A stretch of 55,294 bases of DNA from Singulisphaera sp. GP187 (GTDB lineage Bacteria > Planctomycetota > Planctomycetia > Gemmatales > Gemmataceae), in NCBI GenBank assembly GCA_945861245.1, contig CAMAUE010000016.1, positions 1 through 55,294 of the forward strand, read 5' to 3'. Under the pieces are notes generated by a model, which saw nothing but the letters and a program-made list of their open reading frames with translations, was not told the origin of the DNA and ran no database searches. The position numbers and the translations under genes were made by a program. The number at the start of each line of letters is the position of its first letter. Positions within the stretch are counted from its first letter, which is position 1. Positions 40,221 to 52,062 of this stretch are shown in pieces.

Positions 40221-40721
40221 GGTAAGACTCCACGAAATTGGCAAAGACGATCCAGCCTTCCCAACCTTACGTCGAGCGAGGCGGCAAGGTTGCCGATGAC
40301 ACTATAAATTGCGACGATCGTTTGCGGAGCAGCCGATGCGATCGCTACAATCGGCACAGGCGACAACAATGGTCTCGTCGTTCGCACGCTCCCGGAGATA
40401 GCTGAAAAAGTCTGCTCTCAGTGTGGCCTGAACGTTTCTGAATCGTTTCATTTTTTTTGGCTCTCTACCACTGGTGGGGGAGAGCCAAATATAGAGAATT
40501 CAATTTCCTGCTCCTGCGTTTTTCCGTGTACTTCCGTGTGTTTCCGTGGCTAGCATCTTCTGACCAGTGGTTGCGGCTTGGCCGCGCTTGGCTTTCCGTG
40601 GCAGTATTTGCTCCATGACTTGAATCGTCGTGCACACCATCGCGGCGAAGCGTGTTTGCAAATCGCCAGCGCATGAATAAAAAAACTAATCGTGAAACAA
40701 TGCAGAAAGAGGATAGCACAG
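40221..40721. other. Intergenic region with repeat remnants
   Basis: 500 bp between divergent genes. It holds CCGTGTACTTCCGTGTGTTTCC (about 40527-40548), a worn copy of a common CACGGAAA-type repeat, and a 32-bp imperfect palindrome at 40457-40488 (TTGGCTCTC facing GAGAGCCAA). The T-run next to it is on the wrong side for a terminator on the plus strand. No gene or clear promoter seen. Confidence 0.45.
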
Positions 40722-43700
40722 ATGTCGGCTCTGAACGTATCGAAACCCATTCGCAAGCTGTTGGTCGCCAATCGCAGCGAAATCGCTATTCGCGTATTTC
40801 GCTCGGCACACGAACTCGGCATCCGCACTGTCGCGATCTACGCCCACGAAGATCGCTTCGCGCTGCACCGCTTCAAAGCCGACGAAGCCTATCGCGTCGG
40901 TCAGCCTGGCGAACCGTTGCGCTCTTACTTGGACATCGCCGGCATCATCGCGCTGGCGCGCGAACGCGAGGTCGATGCGATCCATCCGGGCTACGGGTTT
41001 CTCTCGGAAAATCCGAACTTTGCCAAAGCCTGCAACGACGCGGGCATCATCTTCGTCGGGCCGCGTGTGCAGGTCCTCGAACAACTCGGCGACAAACTGG
41101 CAGCACGCCGACTCGCACAACGCGCCAACGTCCCGATTCTCTCCGGCGGCGATAAGCCGCTCAGCGACAAGGTCTCCGCTCGCGCCTTGGCCGAGAAGCT
41201 CGGCTATCCCGTCATCGTCAAAGCGTCGATGGGCGGCGGCGGACGCGGTATGCGTGTTGCGCTTCAGGCCGATCAACTCGACGATGCCGTTGAGCAAGCC
41301 CAACGGGAAGCAGGCACCGCGTTCGGCGTGCCCGACGTCTTTCTCGAAAAATTCATCCCGCGGGCCCGCCACATTGAGGTACAACTCCTCGGTGACAAGC
41401 ACGGCGGACTTGTGCATCTCTTCGAACGCGATTGCTCGCTGCAACGTCGCCATCAGAAAGTCGTCGAAATCGCGCCGGCCCCGAACCTCGACGACGGCAT
41501 CCGCCACGCGATGTGGGACGCCGCCCTGGCGATTGGTCGAGAAGCGGGGTTGGACAACGCGGGCACGGTCGAGTTCCTGTATGATGTCGAGGCCAAGAAG
41601 TTTTACTTCATCGAAGTCAACCCGCGCATCCAGGTTGAGCATACCGTCACCGAGGAGATTACCGGGTACGATCTGATCCAGTCACAGCTTCTCATCGCGC
41701 AAGGCAGGCCGTTGTCCGATCCGGAGATCGGGCTGGGTGAACAGTCGAAAATCGTCCAGCACGGCTTCGCCATCCAGTGCCGGGTGACGACCGAAGACCC
41801 GACGAACAAGTTCGTGCCGAACCACGGTCGGCTCAGCCACTATCGTTCGACGGGCGGTCCGGGCATTCGCCTCGACGCGGGCACGGCATTCACCGGCGCG
41901 GTCATTACGCCGTTCTACGATTCGATGCTCGTCAAGGTCACCGCGCGTGGAAATCGCTTCGTCGATGCGGCCCGACGCATGGAACGCGGGTTGCAGGAAT
42001 TTCGCATTCGGGGCGTGAAGACGAATATTCCGTTCCTCATCAATCTCGTCAAGCACGAAGCGTTCCTGGCAGGCAAATGCACAACGCGCTTCCTCGATGA
42101 GACCCCTGCCCTCTTTCAACTGCTCGAACGCAAGGACCGCGCCACCAAGCTGCTGACGTACATCGGTGAAGTCATCGTCAACGGCCATCACGAAGCGCCT
42201 GTGAAGAACCTGGCACCCGAACGCCGACAGAAGATCTCACGCGAACCAGCCCCGCTGCCGAAGGCTACTACGGAGAAAATTCCCGACGGCACCCGGCAGA
42301 TTCTGCTCAAGGACGGCCCGGCGGGATTGGCGAAATGGGTGAAGGCCCAGAAACGCTTGCTGCTCACCGACACCACGTTCCGCGACGCCCATCAATCGCT
42401 GCTGGCGACCCGCATGCGCACCCACGACATGCTGCAAGTCGCACCGCTTTATGCGCGGCGCCACGCCGATTTTTTCTCGCTCGAAATGTGGGGCGGCGCG
42501 ACCTTCGATACCTCCATGCGCTTCCTCAAGGAAGACCCCTGGCAACGCCTTGAGGAGATGCGCGAACTCGTCCCGAACCTGCTCTTCCAGATGCTGCTTC
42601 GCGCCAACAATGCCGTCGGGTATGCCAACTATCCCGACAACGTCGTCAAGCTTTTCGTGCGCGAGTCGGCCCAGGCAGGCGTTGACGTGTTCCGCATCTT
42701 CGACGCCCTGAACTGGATGCCGAACATGCAGCTCGCCATCGAGGCAGTCGTCGAGCAAGGCAAAGTCTGCGAGCCCGCGATCTGCTACACCGGAGACATC
42801 CTCAATCCGAAACGCGACAAGTATTCGCTGAAATATTACGTCGATCTCGCCAAGCAACTCGAAAAACTTGGCGCGACGATCCTTGGCATCAAAGACATGG
42901 CCGGCGTGTGCAAGCCCTATGCCGCCCAGAAATTGTTCCGCACGTTGAAGCAAGAGGTCGGGCTGCCGATCCACTTTCACACGCACGACTCAGCCGGCGG
43001 GCAGATCGCGTCGCTCATCGCGGCGGCGCAGGAAGGTGTCGATATCGTCGATGCGGCGATGAGTTCGCTGTCGGGAATGACGAGCCAGGCGAACCTGAAC
43101 ACGCTCGTGGAATGTCTGCGTTTCACGGAGCGCGACACCGGCATGGAGTTCGAGTCGCTGCATCAGACGTCGCAATATTGGGAAGCGGTGCGGCGCTATT
43201 ATCTGCCGTTTGAGACCGGCCAATACGCCGCCAGCTCTGAAGTCTATCGCCATGAAATGCCGGGCGGACAGTACACGAACCTGCTTCAGCAGGCACAAGC
43301 GCTCGGCATCGAATCGCGCTGGCCGGAATGCTGCCGGGTGTATGCCGAGGTGAACCAGATGTTCGGCGACATCGTCAAGGTCACACCGACATCGAAAGTC
43401 GTCGGCGACATGGCGCTGTTCATGGTCGCCAACAACCTGACGCCAAGCGATGTGATCGACGGGAAACGCGAGCTTTCGTTTCCCGAATCGGTCGTCGAGT
43501 TTTTCGAAGGCAAGCTCGGCCAACCGGTCGGCGGGTTCCCGGAGAAATTGCAAAAGCGCGTGCTCAAGCATCGCACCGCCATGACGACGCGCCCCGGTGC
43601 CAGCCTGCCGCCCGCGGACCTTGAAGTGCCGCGATCAACACTGGCCAAACAACTCGCCCGCCCGGCAACGGATCGCGAAGTCGTCACGCAGCTCTTATAC

Positions 43701-44198
43701 CCAAGAGTGCATGCCGACTTCCTTAACCATCTGGCGGAATATTCGGACGTCAGCGTGCTGCCGTCGCCGGTGTTTTTCTACGGCATGGAGAAGGGCGACG
43801 AGATCGGCGTCGATATCGAACCGGGCAAGACGCTCATTATCAAGTTTCTCTCCGTCGGCGATCCGATGCTCGATGGCCGACGACTGATCTTCTTCGAGTT
43901 GAACGGCCAACCGCGCGAGGTGTCCGTCCTTGACAAGCTGCTGGCGGGAGAAGTGCGTCGGCATCCAAAGGCCGAGGCGGGGAACACGAAACACGTCGGA
44001 GCACCGATGCCAGGCCTGATTGTGCGCGTCAACGTGACCGACGGCGAAGAAGTGACGGCGGGCCAAAAATTGGCAACGATGGAAGCGATGAAGATGGAGA
44101 CGACCGTCTACGCCGATCGCACCGGCAAAGTCGCCGAGGTGCTTGTGCGTGCCCAGATGCAAATCGAAGCGGGCGATTTGTTGTTGCGGTACGCATAG
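40722..44198 (+). CDS. pyc: Pyruvate carboxylase
   Basis: 1158 residues from the ATG at 40722 (GAGGA 9 bp upstream); a GTG ten codons earlier is less likely. Biotin carboxylase domain (1-460) with [27 protein letters not shown] and FIEVNPRIQVEH. Carboxyltransferase domain (about 530-830) with LLLTDTTFRDAHQSLLATRMRT, the metal-binding HFHTHDS and a lysine in LGIKDMAGV. Tetramerisation region, then the biotinyl domain ending with MEAMKMET, acceptor lysine K1124. It makes oxaloacetate from pyruvate, bicarbonate and ATP in the cytoplasm. Single-chain form of full length. Stand-alone gene followed at once by a perfect family A repeat. Confidence 0.97.
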   Translation: MSALNVSKPIRKLLVANRSEIAIRVFRSAHELGIRTVAIYAHEDRFALHRFKADEAYRVGQPGEPLRSYLDIAGIIALAREREVDAIHPGYGFLSENPNFAKACNDAGIIFVGPRVQVLEQLGDKLAARRLAQRANVPILSGGDKPLSDKVSARALAEKLGYPVIVKASMGGGGRGMRVALQADQLDDAVEQAQREAGTAFGVPDVFLEKFIPRARHIEVQLLGDKHGGLVHLFERDCSLQRRHQKVVEIAPAPNLDDGIRHAMWDAALAIGREAGLDNAGTVEFLYDVEAKKFYFIEVNPRIQVEHTVTEEITGYDLIQSQLLIAQGRPLSDPEIGLGEQSKIVQHGFAIQCRVTTEDPTNKFVPNHGRLSHYRSTGGPGIRLDAGTAFTGAVITPFYDSMLVKVTARGNRFVDAARRMERGLQEFRIRGVKTNIPFLINLVKHEAFLAGKCTTRFLDETPALFQLLERKDRATKLLTYIGEVIVNGHHEAPVKNLAPERRQKISREPAPLPKATTEKIPDGTRQILLKDGPAGLAKWVKAQKRLLLTDTTFRDAHQSLLATRMRTHDMLQVAPLYARRHADFFSLEMWGGATFDTSMRFLKEDPWQRLEEMRELVPNLLFQMLLRANNAVGYANYPDNVVKLFVRESAQAGVDVFRIFDALNWMPNMQLAIEAVVEQGKVCEPAICYTGDILNPKRDKYSLKYYVDLAKQLEKLGATILGIKDMAGVCKPYAAQKLFRTLKQEVGLPIHFHTHDSAGGQIASLIAAAQEGVDIVDAAMSSLSGMTSQANLNTLVECLRFTERDTGMEFESLHQTSQYWEAVRRYYLPFETGQYAASSEVYRHEMPGGQYTNLLQQAQALGIESRWPECCRVYAEVNQMFGDIVKVTPTSKVVGDMALFMVANNLTPSDVIDGKRELSFPESVVEFFEGKLGQPVGGFPEKLQKRVLKHRTAMTTRPGASLPPADLEVPRSTLAKQLARPATDREVVTQLLYPRVHADFLNHLAEYSDVSVLPSPVFFYGMEKGDEIGVDIEPGKTLIIKFLSVGDPMLDGRRLIFFELNGQPREVSVLDKLLAGEVRRHPKAEAGNTKHVGAPMPGLIVRVNVTDGEEVTAGQKLATMEAMKMETTVYADRTGKVAEVLVRAQMQIEAGDLLLRYA

Positions 44199-44199
44199 G

Positions 44200-44253
44200 C
44201 CGCTTGCGGCTTAGCGCTCGCAAGGCGCCAGGCGAGCGCTAAGCCGCAAGCGG
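44200..44253. repeat. Perfect inverted repeat, family A
   Basis: Arms 44200-44220 and 44233-44253 are perfect complements over 21 bp with a 12-bp loop, 1 bp after the pyc stop codon and 5 bp from the original stop codon of the convergent DUF1559 gene. Confidence 0.92.
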
Positions 44254-44258
44254 TAAGT

Positions 44259-45123
44259 TCATAAATCCGGCAGAAAGAGAATTTCGTTGCCGTTCGGCGT
44301 CAGGAAACCACTGAGATTTTGCGTGCCATACGGGAACATTCGCACGGCCCCGTCGCCCATCGCCATGAGGCCGCCTTGCGGGAATGGGCCCGCCCCAGCT
44401 GCCCAGCGTCGGAGCCTGGTTACTGTCACGCTGGATCGAGGCACCGCCCGGATTGGCTGCGCCGTTCTTGCCCGCGCGAATCGTGCCGGTTGTGCCGCCG
44501 GTCAGGATGGTCGAGCAGAAGGCGACGTTGGAGTCGGACTTGTAATCAGCTAGATCGATATTGCCATGCCCCACGAAGACGGTGTTGGATACTCCGTCGT
44601 TGAAGCCGACGAGGGAGCGTTTCGTATCGCCGTTATCGGGCGTCTCGGCTTTCACCGGATTGTTAATGTAATTGTTGAGGAAATAATCGGACCACGCTCC
44701 GCCGCCGCCTTTGCGAAATTCGATGGACGGCCTGCCTCGCCCGGGGCACATGTAAACCGGAACGCCGGCATCCGACGACGGCTTGTTGAAGAGCGGAGCT
44801 TGGTCGATAAATGTTAGAACCTGAAACCCCCAGCTGCCGCTGGTGACCTTCTCCGCCTGCGCATTTTTCGTGTACTTCACTTTGCCCACCATCGTATCGG
44901 AGCCGTTGAATGGGAGACGTTTGTAGACATCGTGGAAGCTGTGCATCGCCAGGCCGATTTGTTTGAGATTGTTGGTTGATTGCGTCCGCGTGGCCGCCTC
45001 GCGCACCTTCTGCACGGCGGGGATGAGTAGCGCCAGCAGTATCGCGATGATGGCGATGATGACGAGCAGTTCGACCAGTCCGAAACCGCGTCGTGGGGAA
45101 CCTGGGTTTGTCCGTGTTCGCAT
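44259..45123 (-). pseudogene. DUF1559 prepilin-like protein, frameshifted near the C-terminus
   Basis: Start ATG at 45123 with AGGAGG 7 bp upstream. Type IV prepilin-like N-terminus: [22 protein letters not shown] with the cleavage glycine and Glu5, then [26 protein letters not shown], then the DUF1559 domain. At about 44385 the frame changes. As written it ends in a spurious tail reading into the family A repeat. Removing one base in the GGGAATGGGCCC tract gives [20 protein letters not shown]..., the family's closing DG motif, and a 287-residue protein ending at 44259. Either assembly error or recent inactivation. These proteins are abundant, poorly understood planctomycete surface/pseudopilin proteins. 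Confidence 0.85.
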
Positions 45124-45265: not shown

Positions 45266-46915
45266 CTATTTCTTTCCCGAAACCGCAGACCCGCGCCGCC
45301 CCGGATCGACTCCTTGCAGTTTCAGCGTGGTGACTTCGCGCGTTTTCATGTCGACGATCTGGATACGATGGCTGTTGGTGTCGGCGACGTACATCTTGCC
45401 AGCGGCGATGCTCAGGCCGGCGGGTTCGTCGAAGGTTTTCTGGGCGGGGTCGCCGACGAAGGTATCGCAGGAGCGCTTGCTCGGGTCGATGATTTTGATC
45501 TTGCTGTTGTAGGTGTCCGCGACGTAGAGCTTGCCGTCGAGGAAGGCGACGCCGAGCGCGTGCTGCAAGCGAACGTCCTTGCCGACGCCGTTTTTGTCCC
45601 CGAACTCGAACAGGCCTTCGCCGACGATCGTCGTGACGTTGCCTTTGACGCCGACGAGAGGCACGGAGCGGATGGCGCTGATTTCGCTGTCGGCGACGAA
45701 CAGCCGTTTGCCGTCGGTGGCGAGGCCTGAGGGCTGAGCGAACATGGCGGACTTGAGCGGGCCGTCCTTAAGCTCCTCCCATCCCGTGCCGGCGTAAGCG
45801 CTGACGTAGCTCTTGGCCGGGTCGAACGTCCAAATCTGATGATGCCCCGCCATGGCGATGTACACGAGCTTGTTGTGGATAAGCAGATCCCACGGACTGC
45901 ACAGAGCGACCTTCTTGGCTGAGCCAGCGGTGCCTAGTTTACCTAGCAGGTTTTTCACACCCGTGCCGGCGACGAGTTTGACGGTTTCCTTCTTGAGATC
46001 TAGTGCCCGGATCGCGTGGTTTTTGCGATCGGCGACATAGAGCGTCTCGCCGTCGAGGGCCATGCCTTGCGGGTCGCTAAACTCGGCCTCGGCAAACGTG
46101 CCGTCCTTCATGCCTTCTTTGCCGCTGCCCGCGATGGCGATCTTCTTGCCGTCGAGATCAGTGATGACGACGCGATGATTGGTGCTGTCGGCAATAAAAA
46201 GGCGTTTCGACTTCGCGTCGGCAAACACCTTGCCCGGAAACAGCAGCGGACTCGCGTTGTTCTCGGCAAGGAGTTTGAAGTTGATCGGGTCTTTCTTGAG
46301 CGTGCCCTTTTTCTCGAATTCTTGGATCAGCGATTTGATGCTGCGATCGACGAGTTCAAGGTTGCCTTCGCCGAAGGCCCCGCCGCGAAAGTTGCCGTCG
46401 GGATCGATCAACGCCAGCGTCGGCCATTGGTTGACGCCATAGGCCCGCCAGAGCTTTTTCTCGGCATCGTTGTAGACAGGATGCTTGATCTCGTAACGCA
46501 GGATCGCCTTCAGGACGCTCGCGGTTTTCTTTTCGTTGTCGAACTTCGGCGTATGAATACCAATGACGACAAGCACGCCGGGATAACGAGCCTCGAGCAC
46601 GGCGAGATCGGGCAGCGTGTGGATGCAGTTGATGCAGCAAAGCGTCCAGAAGTCGAGCAGGACGATTCGGCCCTTGAGGTCGGCCAAGGTGATCGGATTG
46701 TCCGTGTTCAGCCAATCGGTTCCGCCGACGAGATCGATCGCCGGAGCGTTGACCTTCACACCCTGCGCGGAAGCGGTGTTTTCGAGCGGCGACGTAGAAA
46801 CGCCACCCACGAGATAGAAGGCACTGGCCGCCAGCATCACGATCACGGCAGGAAGCAGCAGCGCCTTGAATACTCGACGAACCAGAGCGCCTATTCGTAT
46901 TAACTCATTGCGCAT
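45266..46915 (-). CDS. Membrane-anchored thioredoxin-like/NHL repeat protein (NHLRC2-like)
   Basis: 549 residues from the ATG at 46915 (GGAG 8 bp upstream); the open frame continues 198 bp further but without family resemblance. N-terminal anchor ALLLPAVIVMLAASAFYLVGG, a TlpA/AhpC-type thioredoxin domain (about 55-200) with the redox motif WTLCCINCIHTLPDL, then about six NHL propeller repeats (for example LFIADSTNHRVVITD, LYVADRKNHAIRALD, LYVADTYNSKIKIID, MYVADTNSHRIQIVD). The order matches the NHLRC2 family, whose CCINC site is conserved. Likely an extracytoplasmic thiol-redox protein with a protein-binding propeller; its substrate is unknown. Confidence 0.88.
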   Translation of the reverse strand: MRNELIRIGALVRRVFKALLLPAVIVMLAASAFYLVGGVSTSPLENTASAQGVKVNAPAIDLVGGTDWLNTDNPITLADLKGRIVLLDFWTLCCINCIHTLPDLAVLEARYPGVLVVIGIHTPKFDNEKKTASVLKAILRYEIKHPVYNDAEKKLWRAYGVNQWPTLALIDPDGNFRGGAFGEGNLELVDRSIKSLIQEFEKKGTLKKDPINFKLLAENNASPLLFPGKVFADAKSKRLFIADSTNHRVVITDLDGKKIAIAGSGKEGMKDGTFAEAEFSDPQGMALDGETLYVADRKNHAIRALDLKKETVKLVAGTGVKNLLGKLGTAGSAKKVALCSPWDLLIHNKLVYIAMAGHHQIWTFDPAKSYVSAYAGTGWEELKDGPLKSAMFAQPSGLATDGKRLFVADSEISAIRSVPLVGVKGNVTTIVGEGLFEFGDKNGVGKDVRLQHALGVAFLDGKLYVADTYNSKIKIIDPSKRSCDTFVGDPAQKTFDEPAGLSIAAGKMYVADTNSHRIQIVDMKTREVTTLKLQGVDPGRRGSAVSGKK

Positions 46916-47169: not shown

Positions 47170-47403
47170 ATGGAAATATTGCCAATCGTCGGTGCGGCGT
47201 GTTGCTGCTTCGGGCTCATGGTTGTCCTTCTCGGTGGCGGCGACGACGGCTACTACTATTACTGGGGCCCCGGTTCTGCCGGGTACTACGGCGGGGATGA
47301 CAGCAAAGAAGGCGGAAAATACGGCGACAATTCCGATGATAAAAAAGACGACGGTGGCGGCGACGACGGCGGTGGCGGTGGTTGCGGCGGCGGTGGGGAT
47401 TGA
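47170..47403 (+). CDS. Small Gly/Asp/Cys-rich protein, candidate substrate peptide
   Basis: 77 residues from the ATG at 47170; a GGAGAGAGAA purine stretch lies directly upstream. A hydrophobic N-terminus with three adjacent cysteines (LPIVGAACCCFGLMVVLLGG) is followed by a YYYYWGPGSAGYYGG tract and a low-complexity tail of Gly, Asp and Lys ending DDGGGGGCGGGGD with one cysteine. No family match is claimed. It lies 180 bp upstream of a DUF692 (MNIO) gene on the same strand. MNIO enzymes modify cysteine- or asparagine-bearing peptides, and related actinobacterial neighbourhoods have Gly/Cys-rich membrane proteins, so this is a candidate substrate. Alternatively it is an unrelated small membrane protein; a repeat lies between the two genes. 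Confidence 0.6.
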   Translation: MEILPIVGAACCCFGLMVVLLGGGDDGYYYYWGPGSAGYYGGDDSKEGGKYGDNSDDKKDDGGGDDGGGGGCGGGGD

Positions 47404-47429
47404 TCGCTCTCCCATTGCGAAGAAATCCA

Positions 47430-47563
47430 ACCACAGAGGCACTGAGAACACAGAGAAATACAATAATAGGTAAAATACACTAAACGCCCTTTCCCCAGAT
47501 AATTCATTCGACGGGACACCTGATCCCTACGGTAGTTCTCTGTGTCCTCTGTGTCTCTGTGGT
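47430..47563. repeat. Inverted repeat of the CCACAGAG type
   Basis: ACCACAGAGGCACTGAGAAC and following bases (47430-47458) face the TTCTCTGTGTCCTCTGTGTC stretch (47536-47563); the arms are CA/GA-rich imperfect complements around a 77-bp loop. It lies 26 bp after the small gene and 19 bp before the DUF692 start. Confidence 0.75.
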
Positions 47564-47582
47564 GAATAATTTGGACTAAACC

Positions 47583-48455
47583 ATGACTCTCTCTCTCCCA
47601 AACCTCGGTCTCGGCATCGGCTGGCGGGCCCAACTCGCTCACGCCATTCTCAACCGACCCGACATCGGCTTCGTCGAAATCCTCGCCGAGGATTATTTCC
47701 TCAGTGAGACCATTCCCCCACCTTTGCAAGCACTACACGATCGCGGCGTGCATATCATCCCGCACGGCGTCGGCCTGAACCTCGGCGGCGCCGAACCGAT
47801 CGACCCCGCTCGCCTTGCCGCGCTCGGTGAACTCGCCCAGCGCATGCAAGCGCCGTTCGTCAGCGAGCATATCGCCTTCGTCCGTGCTGCAGGACTTGAG
47901 ACGGGACATCTCCTGCCGATCCCGCGCACGCATGCCATGCTCGACATCCTCGTCAAAAACATCCGCCAAGCCGAGGCCGCCCTGCCCGTGCCGTTGGTGC
48001 TGGAAAACATCGCGATCCTGTTCGATTGGCCCAACGCCGAGATGGACGAGGCGGCATTTCTCAACGCCATCTGCGAACGCACCGACGCCTTGCTCCTGCT
48101 CGATCTCGAAAACATCTACGCCAACGCCCGCAACCTCGGCGGCGATCCCGTCGCACTGCTCGATCGGCTGCCGCTCGAACGTGTCGCCTACGTCCATGTC
48201 GCCGGCGGTTACGAAGCCGACGGCGTCTTTCACGACACGCATGCCCATCCGTTGCATGAAGAGGTCGTCGCACTCGTCGAGGCGTTGTATGCGCGAATGG
48301 CAGTGCCTGGCGTCATGCTCGAGCGCGACGACCGCTTCCCGGACGACGCCGAGCTAGGCACCGAACTCGACGCCATCGCCGCCGCGATTGCGCGAGGCAA
48401 CATCGAAAGACACGAGCGCGGCTTCGCCCATCCCGTCCTAAGCGACGCGTCCTGA
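47583..48455 (+). CDS. DUF692 family multinuclear non-heme iron oxygenase (MNIO)
   Basis: 290 residues of the TIM-barrel family that includes MbnB, TglH and ChrH. Candidate iron ligands are in the usual places: E32 (FVEILAEDYF), H61 (IIPHGVGLNLGG), E95/H96 (SEHIAF), E141 (LVLENIA), D174 (LLDLENIY), H205 (YVHVAGG), D218 with H220/H222 (HDTHAHP) and E247 (MLERDD). The family uses two or three irons and O2 to modify residues, often cysteines, of ribosomally made peptides. Next is an SCO6045-like partner gene, as in other MNIO cassettes, and a Gly/Cys-rich small gene lies upstream. No Shine-Dalgarno is obvious. Confidence 0.9.
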   Translation: MTLSLPNLGLGIGWRAQLAHAILNRPDIGFVEILAEDYFLSETIPPPLQALHDRGVHIIPHGVGLNLGGAEPIDPARLAALGELAQRMQAPFVSEHIAFVRAAGLETGHLLPIPRTHAMLDILVKNIRQAEAALPVPLVLENIAILFDWPNAEMDEAAFLNAICERTDALLLLDLENIYANARNLGGDPVALLDRLPLERVAYVHVAGGYEADGVFHDTHAHPLHEEVVALVEALYARMAVPGVMLERDDRFPDDAELGTELDAIAAAIARGNIERHERGFAHPVLSDAS

Positions 48456-48459
48456 TTTG

Positions 48460-48479
48460 CCGCTTGCGGCTTAGCGCTC
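48460..48479. repeat. Single arm of family A repeat
   Basis: One intact arm (CCGCTTGCGGCTTAGCGCTC) 4 bp after the DUF692 stop codon; no matching right arm before the next gene, 54 bp on. Confidence 0.7.
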
Positions 48480-48533
48480 AGAGTATCCCACGCAATCGCA
48501 AGGCGCATTTCACAAACTGACACGGAGCCGATC

Positions 48534-49022
48534 ATGATGTCCGCATCACGCGAAGCGATCTCCGATACGCAGGCCGACCTCGTGCGTGCCCTCGTGCACG
48601 GCACGCCCGTGCCCGCCGGCTTCGACGAGCAGCGTGTGCAAGCCGTCGCGCGGTCGCTCGTCAACAAGCGACGGCAGGCGTTGGCACGCATTTGGCCAAG
48701 CCTCGTGAAGCGAGTCGGCGATAGCTTCATCGCCAAGTTCACCGAGTACGGCCAAACACATCCGCTGCCGACGAGCGCGAACGCCCTGGCCGACGGCCGC
48801 GCGTTTCTGGCCTGGCTCGCCGTCAAGGAACCGCCGACCGATGACTTGCGCATCGAAGCCCTGGCCTACGACCTGCGCTGGCGCGAAACGCCGCTTGGCC
48901 TGTGTCGCCGCGGCGGTTTCGGGATCAAGATAGCACGATTGGCGCAATCGGAAAAGTGGCTTCTGGGATTGCGCACACCCTGGCGCGGCGATCGCTGGTG
49001 GGGGATGCCAGCGAATGTGTAG
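48534..49022 (+). CDS. SCO6045-like MNIO partner protein
   Basis: 162 residues; two adjacent ATG codons (48534, 48537) with GGAG 6-9 bp upstream. The N-terminal helical region ISDTQADLVRALVHGTPVPAGFDEQRVQAVARSLVNKRRQALARIWP and the pattern FTEYGQTHPLP..NALADGRAFLAWL resemble the SCO6045/DUF2063-type partner proteins that sit next to DUF692 enzymes and are thought to deliver or bind the substrate peptide. The tail (WLLGLRTPWRGDRWWGMP) is tryptophan-rich. It starts 78 bp after the oxygenase gene, probably in the same transcript, and a family A arm lies in the gap. Confidence 0.75.
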   Translation: MMSASREAISDTQADLVRALVHGTPVPAGFDEQRVQAVARSLVNKRRQALARIWPSLVKRVGDSFIAKFTEYGQTHPLPTSANALADGRAFLAWLAVKEPPTDDLRIEALAYDLRWRETPLGLCRRGGFGIKIARLAQSEKWLLGLRTPWRGDRWWGMPANV

Positions 49023-49032
49023 GAATTTTTGC

Positions 49033-49056
49033 ATTCCGCTTGCGGCTTAGCGCTCG
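49033..49056. repeat. Single arm of family A repeat
   Basis: An intact arm ATTCCGCTTGCGGCTTAGCG with its CTCG end, 10 bp after the SCO6045-like gene; the right arm is absent, and a family I palindrome follows instead. Confidence 0.7.
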
Positions 49057-49088: not shown

Positions 49089-49162
49089 TTGGCGAGCCTA
49101 GCCGCGTAAGCGGCAGGTTTGCAGGCACGTCAACCTGCCGCTTACGCGGCTAGGCTCGCCAA
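49089..49162. repeat. Perfect 31-bp-arm inverted repeat, family I
   Basis: Arms 49089-49119 and 49132-49162 are perfect complements over 31 bp (core GCCTAGCCGCGTAAGCGGC) with a 12-bp loop. The broken toxin gene on the minus strand ends inside the right arm (TAG at 49150-49152). Confidence 0.92.
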
Positions 49163-49278
49163 TGACTATATGCCGCGGTTTTGACCAACTCCCATTCAAT
49201 CGTCGCCGGTGGTTTGCTTCTGATGTCTCTCGTGTTGATCCAGGCGATCAAAGCGTAGGTATCCATGAAAACGGTCAT
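49150..49278 (-). pseudogene. Truncated VapC-like PIN toxin fused to a guaA 3' fragment
   Basis: 42 codons. The first 18 (MTVFMDTYALIAWINTRD) are a typical PIN-domain opening with the first catalytic aspartate (D6). The next twelve, [12 protein letters not shown], are instead the end of GMP synthase ([11 protein letters not shown] in guaA at 50509). The frame then runs into the family I palindrome and stops. The rest of the PIN domain is missing, so the toxin must be inactive. Its ATG overlaps the antitoxin stop (ATGA), showing it once formed a normal toxin-antitoxin operon with the gene at 49275-49490. Confidence 0.8.
49188..49227. repeat. Direct duplicate of the guaA 3' end (att-like)
   Basis: These 40 bp match 50511-50550, the last 40 bp of guaA, at 38 of 40 positions and in the same orientation. 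Similarity stops abruptly on both sides. Integrases of several genomic islands use the guaA 3' end as attachment site, so this looks like a residual att copy. No integrase is present. Confidence 0.75.
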
Positions 49279-49490
49279 CGCTTTGGCTTCACCAGTCGAT
49301 AGTGCTCGTGCTGGGCAGCCAGGTCGGTCGGCAAATCGGGTGAATCGATGACCAGGTCGCCGAAGAGCTGACCAAACGTCATTTGTTTGCCAACCTTCAC
49401 CGGCTCGATGCGCACGCGCGTTCCCTCGGCTAACGCCGTCGTGTCGTCTGGCACGATGACACCATCATGAACCACGCCTTCGAGTTCCAT
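49275..49490 (-). CDS. VapB-like antitoxin (AF2212/DUF104 type)
   Basis: 71 residues: MELEGVVHDGVIVPDD...LAEGTRVRIEPV, the AbrB-like/DUF104 pattern of antitoxins that bind PIN toxins, then a helical C-terminus (FGQLFGDLVIDSPDLPTDLAAQHEHY) that would wrap the toxin. AGAGGTGTGTC lies directly upstream of the ATG as ribosome site. It is coupled by ATGA to the toxin gene, which is truncated after 18 codons, so the antitoxin is now an orphan. Confidence 0.75.
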   Translation of the reverse strand: MELEGVVHDGVIVPDDTTALAEGTRVRIEPVKVGKQMTFGQLFGDLVIDSPDLPTDLAAQHEHYRLVKPKR

Positions 49491-50508: not shown

Positions 50509-52062
50509 CTACTCCCATTCAATCGTCGCCGGCGGTTTGCTGCTGATGTCGTAGACCACGCGGTTGACGCCGCGGACTTCGTTGATGATGCGCGTTGACA
50601 TCTTCGCCAGCAGCTCGTAGGGCAGATGCGACCAGTCGGCGGTCATGAAGTCGTCGGTTTGCACGGCTCGGACGGCGACGGCGTTTTCGTACGTTCGGCC
50701 ATCGCCCATGACGCCGACCGATTGCACGGGCAGCAGCACCGCGAACGCCTGGGAGGTTTTGCGATACCAGCCCGATGCCTTGAGTTCCTCCAACACAATC
50801 GCATCGGCGTTGCGTAGCACTTCGAGCCGATCTTCACTGATCGTGCCGAGACAGCGCACCGCCAGACCGGGACCGGGGAACGGATGCCGCCAGACGATGT
50901 TTTCGGGCAGGCCGAGTTCCAGTCCCAGCCTGCGTACTTCGTCTTTGAAGAGATCCCGGAGCGGTTCGATCAGGTCGAAGCCAAGCTCCTTGGGCAGCCC
51001 GCCGACGTTGTGGTGCAGCTTGATGTTCGCAGCGGGGCCATCTGCTGCCGCACCGCTTTCGATGACATCGGGATAGAGCGTTCCTTGAGCGAGAAACTTG
51101 GCGTTGTCGATGGTGCGGGCTTCGTCTTTGAACACGTCGATGAACACATGGCCGATAATCCGGCGTTTCTCCTGCGGATCGGACACGCCTGCCAGCGCCG
51201 TGAGGAAGCGCTCTCGTGCATCGACACAGTGCAGGTCGGCCTTAAAGTGATCGCGGAAGGTTTGCCGCACGACCTCGGCTTCGTTCTTGCGCAGCAAGCC
51301 GTTATCGACGAAGATGCAGGCGATTTGGCTGCCCAGCGCCTTGATGAGCAGGGCGGCGGCGACCGACGAATCAACTCCGCCGGAAAGTCCGCAGATGACG
51401 CGATGTTGGCCAACGCGCTGCCTTAATTCCGTCACGTTCTGATCGATGAACGAACCGAGCTTCCACTGCCCGGTACAGCCACAGGCCTGATAGAGGAAGT
51501 TGCGCAGAATCTGGCTGCCGTGTGGCGTATGACTGACTTCCGGATGAAACTGCAAGCCGAAGATTGGCCGGGTGCGATGCTTGACCGCCGCCATTGGGCA
51601 GGTATCGGTCGAGGCGAGTGACACGAAGTCGGAGCCTTCGGCCTGCACCTGATCGCCGTGGCTCATCCAGACTTGCATTTCGCGGGGAACGCCCGCGAGC
51701 AAGCCGTGCGTGTCGGCGACGGTGCACTGGGCTCGCCCGAATTCGCGTTTGTTCGCCGGCAGCACCTTGCCGCCGAGTAAGTGAGCGGTCAGTTGCATGC
51801 CGTAGCAGATGCCGAGGATGGGAATGCCGAGGTCGAGGATTTTCGGATCGCACGTCGGCGCGCCGGGGGCGTAGACGCTGGCCGGGCCGCCGGAAAAGAT
51901 GATGCCCTTGGGGTTGAGTTCGCGCACGCGCTCCGCCGAGATCGTGTTACGAACGATTTGGCAAAACACATGCTGCTCGCGGACTCGCCGGGCGATTAGC
52001 TGGCCGTATTGGGAGCCGAAGTCGAAGATTAGGATGCGTTCGTGTTCTGGCAACGGATTCAT
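50509..52062 (-). CDS. guaA: GMP synthase (glutamine-hydrolysing)
   Basis: 517 residues. The glutaminase domain (about 8-195) has catalytic cysteine C86 in [15 protein letters not shown] and His/Glu in [10 protein letters not shown]. The ATP pyrophosphatase domain has the P-loop GLSGGVDSS, and the dimerisation domain has [15 protein letters not shown] and ends [11 protein letters not shown]. Converts XMP, glutamine and ATP to GMP in the cytoplasm. Full-length single-chain form. The final 40 bp are duplicated at 49188-49227, and the 3' end of guaA is a known integration hotspot for genomic islands. Confidence 0.97.

Follow-up and report, generated by a model that had tools for sequence, protein, structure and literature searches.

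The window examined here is a 55,294-nucleotide stretch of the planctomycete Singulisphaera sp. GP187 (contig CAMAUE010000016.1 of GenBank assembly GCA_945861245.1), taken from a draft genome of 6.04 Mb that is 94.66% complete. It holds a candidate protein-modification cassette of three open reading frames (ORFs) which, as an earlier note made from the sequence alone had placed them, follow one another on the + strand: i) a gene for a 77-residue protein (47170..47403), an ORF call with no Pfam or NCBIfam match; ii) a gene for a 290-residue MNIO (DUF692, PF05114) enzyme (47583..48455), recognized by profile match and conserved residues; and iii) a gene for a 162-residue partner (48534..49022), assigned by a weak profile match and a structural model to the PME-type 2 kind, with a DUF2063-like helical N-terminal domain followed by a short beta domain. 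The small protein ends in a conserved C-terminal tail, GGGGCGGGGD (residues 68-77, 47371..47400, + strand), identified by pattern and by tail comparison, in which Cys72 is the tail cysteine. The 179 bp between the small gene and the MNIO gene contain an inverted repeat with two 32-nt arms (47430..47563, neither strand), found by repeat search and gap comparison; it is imperfect, the arms being 88% complementary and 70 nt apart.

The small protein and its relatives within the genus

The small ORF starts at the ATG at 47170, preceded by GGAGAGAGAA, and encodes one hydrophobic segment (about residues 3-21; best 19-residue mean hydropathy 2.64) with CCC at residues 11-13 inside it, then a Tyr/Asp/Gly linker, and finally a tail ending in GGGGGCGGGGD whose single cysteine, Cys72, is the sixth residue from the end. 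The protein has no TIGR04222 profile match (cut-off 43 bits), nor does any protein encoded in the draft genome exceed that cut-off. We considered the N-terminal cysteines as a lipobox and rejected this, as there is neither a positive n-region nor a lipobox consensus (judged by eye, without a predictor). The tail is rare in its surroundings: the Gly/Ser/Cys-tail criterion picks out 1 of 721 six-frame ORFs of at least 45 residues in the window; the coding pattern GCGGGGD-stop occurs once in the whole draft genome, at the cassette (reversed-pattern control, 0); and in the genus the pattern CGGGGD-stop is confined to the cassette, in 3/7 genomes. Compared with the nearest relative, whose MNIO is 93% identical with a ratio of nonsynonymous to synonymous change (dN/dS) of 0.09, the small gene gives a dN/dS of about 0.28 over 74 codons (18 synonymous and 21 nonsynonymous changes), a rough value from a low-complexity alignment which suggests, as roughly, that the small ORF is under purifying selection.

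Five of the seven genus genomes have the MNIO and the same five have the partner; the other two (G064 and G065) contain no PF05114 gene (E ≤ 1e-10), and no partner was found in them either. The earlier note had proposed that co-occurrence of the small gene with the MNIO/partner pair be sought in related genomes, and it holds in all five MNIO-bearing members, in each of which the small tail protein is encoded directly upstream of the MNIO. The note had also asked whether the small gene might be missing beside such pairs or replaced by something else: within the genus it is neither, and outside the genus a larger TIGR04222 protein with a similar tail does replace it. The five small proteins have 77 (window), 83 (L037), 78 (L039), 120 (L040), and 220 residues (L038), and end in GCGGGGD in the window, L037, and L039 and in GCGGGD in L040; the L038 protein ends in GGGE, with GCGGGGD repeated three times further in. 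All begin with a hydrophobic stretch containing 2-3 cysteines in the first 25 residues (47170-47244 in the window), at differing spacings; the CCC motif, to which the earlier note had drawn attention, is not conserved, being found only in the window and L037.

The small gene and the MNIO gene are 179 bp apart in the window and 275 bp apart in L037, but just 4-9 bp in L038, L039, and L040. Because of these short gaps we take the inverted repeat to look like a later insertion in the window/L037 lineage. The repeat which had been thought to weaken the linkage is thus present, but explained. A blastn search over 7 kb of the window found that L038-L040 share with it the cassette and short repeats, and nothing else.

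One genome of the genus, G066, has a single PF05114 gene (E ≤ 1e-10) and carries both a small-protein cassette and a TIGR04222 ORF (L203, on contig C266) whose Gly/Cys repeats run into the contig end; this ORF may be contamination or a second member.

The MNIO enzyme and its partner

The window MNIO matches PF05114 with 270 bits (2.2e-80; gathering score, 25), and the draft genome has no second match at E ≤ 0.001. Its conserved positions are intact, as had been claimed: His61, His96, Glu141, Asp174, His205, Asp218, His220, and Glu247 are invariant in seven aligned sequences, and most of them align with the MbnB and TglH sequences of solved structures. We take these invariant positions to be the iron ligands. 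Of the named models, BufB gives the enzyme its highest score (202.8 bits), followed by HvfB (171), ApyH (110), ChrH (65), and MbnB (38), and no TglH model is among the matches; all these scores, including that for HvfB, fall below the models' cut-offs (310 for BufB, 400 for ApyH, 600 for ChrH, and 325 for MbnB). Enzymes of the BufB/HvfB type convert cysteine to 5-thiooxazole, with copper binding, according to PMC13097082; the HvfA product is still given as an oxazolone thioamide in Table 1 of PMC12452194. Since the best-scoring models are of cysteine-modifying enzymes, cysteine chemistry is the likelier guess for the window MNIO, and no more than that.

The partner falls below the DUF2063 cut-off (20.4 bits against 27.2; 6.5e-4), and a gene that follows the MNIO and encodes a DUF2063-like protein below the profile cut-off is what is expected of PME-type 2 partners. 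Relatives of it were found in 60 of 107 locus entries (tblastn, 1e-2; the entries include six duplicates and the window itself), downstream of the MNIO in the matches listed. An AlphaFold2 model (pLDDT 92.8) predicts five helices followed by a small beta domain. In a fold search of the PDB the model comes closest, and weakly so, to 7dz9_C, which is chain C of the MbnABC complex (E 0.07, probability 0.89, TM-score 0.43, 162 columns); the remaining 49 matches listed have query TM-scores of at most 0.19, and neither 3dee nor 8hi7, looked for in connection with the NGO1945/TglI fold of a helical domain with or without an RRE-type domain, is among them. By sequence, the partner has two matches in the PDB (E 0.29 and 2), unrelated by name. 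The predicted model fits the description of PME-type 2 partners in PMC12452194, without proving the assignment. As to SCO6045, to which the earlier note had likened the partner, PMC4991794 lists it with a 3-fold change in an HbpS-SenS-SenR RNA-seq table, an entry too thin for us to assign a function.

Tail proteins beside related MNIOs

Where this genus has its small protein, other genera of the family (L007 and L008) encode a Gly/Cys-tailed membrane protein of the TIGR04222 type. Most related MNIOs from other planctomycetes, actinomycetes, and further phyla likewise adjoin a TIGR04222 membrane protein with such a tail, for which GGCGG is the usual ending. Among 397 genomes of the class, 22 have an MNIO at E ≤ 1e-40, and these loci were chosen by the MNIO alone; in 21/22 a Gly/Cys-tailed protein is encoded upstream on the same strand, L034 being the one without. 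(L004/L038 was scored by eye, its last cysteine lying too far from the end for our script.) The MNIO alignment, run against named genomes, yielded 59 loci, by title from Planctomycetota, Actinomycetota, Cyanobacteriota/Melainabacteria, Verrucomicrobiota, and others, with a tail protein found by script in 44 and by eye in three more (L038, L089, and L091). In one respect, then, the view of the small protein as unlike any known precursor is not supported: at its C-terminal end it matches the Gly/Cys tails of the TIGR04222 proteins that related MNIOs have as neighbours.

Over 101 loci the tail criterion selects 71 of 5977 six-frame ORFs, 70 of them on the strand of the MNIO; six duplicates of named loci (L003-L008) are excluded from these counts, while a few near-identical genomes are kept and L096 repeats the L047 tail. 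The tail gene lies downstream of the MNIO in L053, L066, and L076. Two residues follow the last cysteine in 51/70 tails, and GGCGG ends are found in 45/70 against Asp or Glu ends in 11/70, so that the cysteine is the constant feature. In three loci from Rhodococcus and Rhodococcoides (L068, L084, and L085), tandem tail-bearing TIGR04222-type genes lie upstream of one MNIO.

Carriers of the tail and the MNIO tree

TIGR04222 is matched (E ≤ 0.01) by 62 of the 71 tail proteins. The nine without a match comprise all five small proteins of the genus, two proteins in L033, and one each in L106 and L115. The L033 pair is in tandem, one having N-terminal CxxC pairs and membrane segments and the other being cut by the end of the stretch; the L115 protein (TIGR04222 E 0.31) looks like a remnant with few membrane helices. 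Two further carriers resembling that of L033 (L130 and L131) were found with the L033 MNIO as query. Zinc-ribbon-like membrane proteins with a GGCGG(D) tail are encoded upstream of MNIOs in L033, L106/L132, L130, and L131, the label "zinc-ribbon-like" denoting Cys pairs together with weak matches (for L033 the best NCBIfam E is 0.014; the L033 and L130 carriers have no Pfam match).

An MNIO tree of 71 rows (a quick method, no bootstrap, unrooted, carriers labeled from the tail script rather than by profile; L034, L060, L094, 13 thinned close relatives, and all but eight of the 22 loci L100-L121 are omitted) places the five small-protein MNIOs in one clade (SH-aLRT 99). This clade is nested in a 49-row clade (99) whose other rows comprise 37 with TIGR04222-type carriers and seven without a tail protein by script; the L033, L106, and L115 MNIOs form a separate clade (99). 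By parsimony, which alone gives the direction of carrier change in an unrooted tree, the TIGR04222 domain, supposing it to have been present earlier, would have undergone loss or replacement on two or more occasions. Carriers replaced and tail retained in two separate MNIO clades point to the tail as the functional part.

A proposed modification cassette and its alternatives

We propose that the three genes probably constitute a protein-modification cassette, in which partner and MNIO would together oxidise the tail cysteine of the small protein, a likely substrate. The proposal builds on the gene order, its conservation, the common tail, the nesting of the MNIO among TIGR04222-associated MNIOs, and the predicted partner fold; from these we infer the substrate role of the tail, the modified residue, the chemistry, and the function. 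Specifically, the small protein would be a minimal substrate, its hydrophobic segment inserting into the membrane and its flexible Gly/Asp tail offering one cysteine near the end; the DUF2063-like partner would present the tail to the MNIO; the MNIO would oxidise the cysteine, with a thiooxazole-type heterocycle as the most likely product given that the enzyme scores best against the cysteine-modifying BufB and HvfB models; and the modified tail might provide the membrane with a soft-metal (copper) or redox site.

Several results weigh against this proposal. Twelve of the 59 named-genome MNIO loci lack a tail protein in the stretch covered (in one, L060, the contig begins there), and in three of the twelve, all Streptomyces, a TIGR04222-like stretch is present whose frame ends without the tail. 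In a search of 392 genomes of the phylum, a tail protein accompanies just 7 of 26 further MNIO loci. No signal peptide is apparent in the small protein, as judged by eye without a predictor, and the tail alignment is one of low-complexity sequence.

The tail is also common in the absence of an MNIO, which is the most serious evidence against the proposal. A TIGR04222 search of 394 genomes of the class found 81 places in 76 genomes, examined as 82 loci (one place was entered twice, as L160 and L203, and 12 came from the earlier loci). Four loci were not placed by BLAST (L193, L199, L201, and L202, of which L193 and L201 do show the tail) and three incomplete sequences were excluded, leaving 75 classified proteins: 15 with both a tail and an adjacent MNIO, 56 with a tail and no adjacent MNIO (judged from 0.8-1.9 kb downstream of the tail), and four with neither. 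The Cys tail is accordingly present in 15/15 proteins with an adjacent MNIO and 56/60 without. A PF05114 gene (E ≤ 1e-10) is found in just 17 of the 55 genomes holding the 56, and none in the other 38. In PMC12452194, similarly, 490 of 1372 genomes with TIGR04222 genes are reported to have no MNIO genes, and over a quarter of TIGR04222 proteins no C-proximal cysteine. Conservation of the tail is therefore not in itself proof of modification, and the tail as a general marker of MNIO substrates was rejected on the strength of the 56 proteins and 38 genomes just described. In this class the MNIO branch is nearly always accompanied by the tail, but the tail does not imply an MNIO. It must owe its presence to some function or past independent of the enzyme, and the MNIO-linked subset may have modification on top of this. 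Fifty-two of the 56 MNIO-free proteins (for example L139, L140, and L150, in the range L138-L201) have at least 450 residues, against 309-425 beside MNIOs. By eye no gene recurs across genera next to the MNIO-free proteins (32 of 37 loci, where the gene was placed); L176 and L186, from one genus, have an ORF in common.

These counts give most weight to an alternative in which the Gly/Cys tail works unmodified, whether as a thiol metal site, a disulphide, or an assembly tag, and the MNIO and partner act elsewhere, or on the tail in some lineages only. We regard this as unlikely, perhaps a one-in-several prospect, since the tail gene adjoins the MNIO in 21/22 genomes of the class and the window's genus keeps the tail beside the MNIO despite having no TIGR04222 domain there. 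Precursor genes lie beside MNIO genes as a rule, yet a sizeable share of bufferin precursors is unlinked, according to PMC12452194.

It is considerably less probable that the target of the MNIO is the C-terminal Asp, the residue which ApyH modifies in ApyA, instead of the cysteine. The window tail does end in Asp, as do four of the five small proteins of the genus (the fifth ends in Glu), and MNIOs modifying a C-terminal Asp are known (PMC12452194, Table 1). Against this, the acidic ends are far outnumbered by GGCGG beside MNIOs in the tail survey, and an Asp end is commoner without an adjacent MNIO (31/56), for which reason it looks like a trait of planctomycete tails; moreover the ApyH model gives the MNIO 110 bits (cut-off 400) and the BufB model 203. 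We have dropped the C-terminal Asp as a general target. Finally, that the small ORF is a chance neighbour unrelated to the MNIO, or not a gene at all, is suggested by its low-complexity product and by the repeat and 179 bp which separate the two, but is very improbable and largely refuted by its presence in 5/5 genus members, the 4-9 bp gaps in three of them, the dN/dS of about 0.28, and a tail pattern unique in the genome.

Returning to the modification cassette, we wish to raise tentatively a broader reading, to which we give rather less credence than to the cassette itself: the tail could be a portable modification site, such that MNIO-partner pairs would act on a short tail irrespective of the membrane protein to which it is attached, be that a full TIGR04222 protein, a zinc-ribbon-like membrane protein, a few-helix remnant, or a single segment. 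If so, these systems would carry out post-translational modification of resident membrane proteins and not the production of released peptides, and our survey would contain no smaller natural substrate of this MNIO branch than the 77-residue protein. TIGR04222 proteins are big, membrane-bound, and a large group of untested putative substrates: according to PMC12452194 they account for 40% of more than 1,000 Cys proteins which lack a signal peptide and whose genes precede MNIO genes. The window protein, a natural counterpart of just 77 residues with one tail cysteine, is of a size suited to expression and mass spectrometry, and thereby makes the action of this MNIO branch directly testable; it is a convenient test case.

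Genomic setting

The flanking genes are ordinary: a pyruvate-carboxylase-like gene (40692-44198), a DUF1559 protein (44239-45123), and a GMP synthase (50509-52062) by Pfam, and a thioredoxin-like/NHL protein (45266-46915) by profile match. The partner gene is flanked by a 20-nt direct repeat (48460-48479 and 49036-49055), and the exact 20-mer occurs across the window in five copies on the + strand and six on the - strand. A perfect 31-nt inverted repeat with 12 nt between its arms (49089-49162) lies near a 71-residue ORF on the - strand (49275-49490), which has no Pfam or NCBIfam match and which we take to be an antitoxin-type gene.

Comparison with known systems

The cassette shares with the methanobactin system MbnABC an MNIO of the same fold family with most of the conserved positions in common, and the top PDB match of the partner model, weak as it is, comes from that complex; it differs in that the window MNIO scores 38 bits against MbnB (cut-off 325) and in that the small protein is, we presume, unlike the MbnA precursor. 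The bufferins and captophorins (BufABC, HvfABC, and FonABC) resemble the cassette in supplying the best-scoring named models, BufB and HvfB, and in encoding a small Cys-containing substrate upstream of an MNIO and a DUF2063-type partner. Unlike bufferins, however, the small protein has no EGKCG motif, no DUF2282 match, a single tail cysteine, and no Sec signal peptide visible by eye, and both the partner and the MNIO fall below the respective cut-offs for DUF2063 and for BufB and HvfB. The aminopyruvatide system ApyAHI shares a C-terminal Asp on the candidate substrate, and a PME-type 2 partner is reported for it (PMC12452194); it differs in that an Asp end is not general beside MNIOs of the present kind and in the low ApyH score of the window enzyme (110 bits, cut-off 400).

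The closest likeness is to clusters of TIGR04222, MNIO, and PME-type 2 genes, whose TIGR04222 proteins have already been named putative MNIO substrates in silico (Antoine et al. 2025, PMC12452194). These clusters share with the cassette i) the order tail protein, MNIO, partner; ii) a membrane carrier with a Gly-rich, Cys-bearing tail; iii) a DUF2063-like partner below the Pfam cut-off; and iv) in actinomycetes, MNIOs about 49-57% identical to that of the window over the best segments. With the MNIO-linked subset of TIGR04222 proteins the small protein has in common a Gly/Ser-rich Cys tail beside an MNIO. Unlike those carriers, it has no TIGR04222 match, one hydrophobic segment instead of several, a single cysteine in its last 40 residues (found in 3/70 tails), and an acid cap, GGGGD, after the cysteine. 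In the literature searched, TIGR04222 is named in one paper besides PMC12452194, a single mention in a genome paper on an ant-symbiont Pseudonocardia. Among the papers listed on MNIOs with planctomycetes or with Gly-rich transmembrane precursors, none describes a tail-only carrier in its title or the opening of its abstract. Judged by its sequence, the cassette would thus appear to be of a known type in which the large membrane domain has been replaced by a single hydrophobic segment, the tail-only carrier being what is new.

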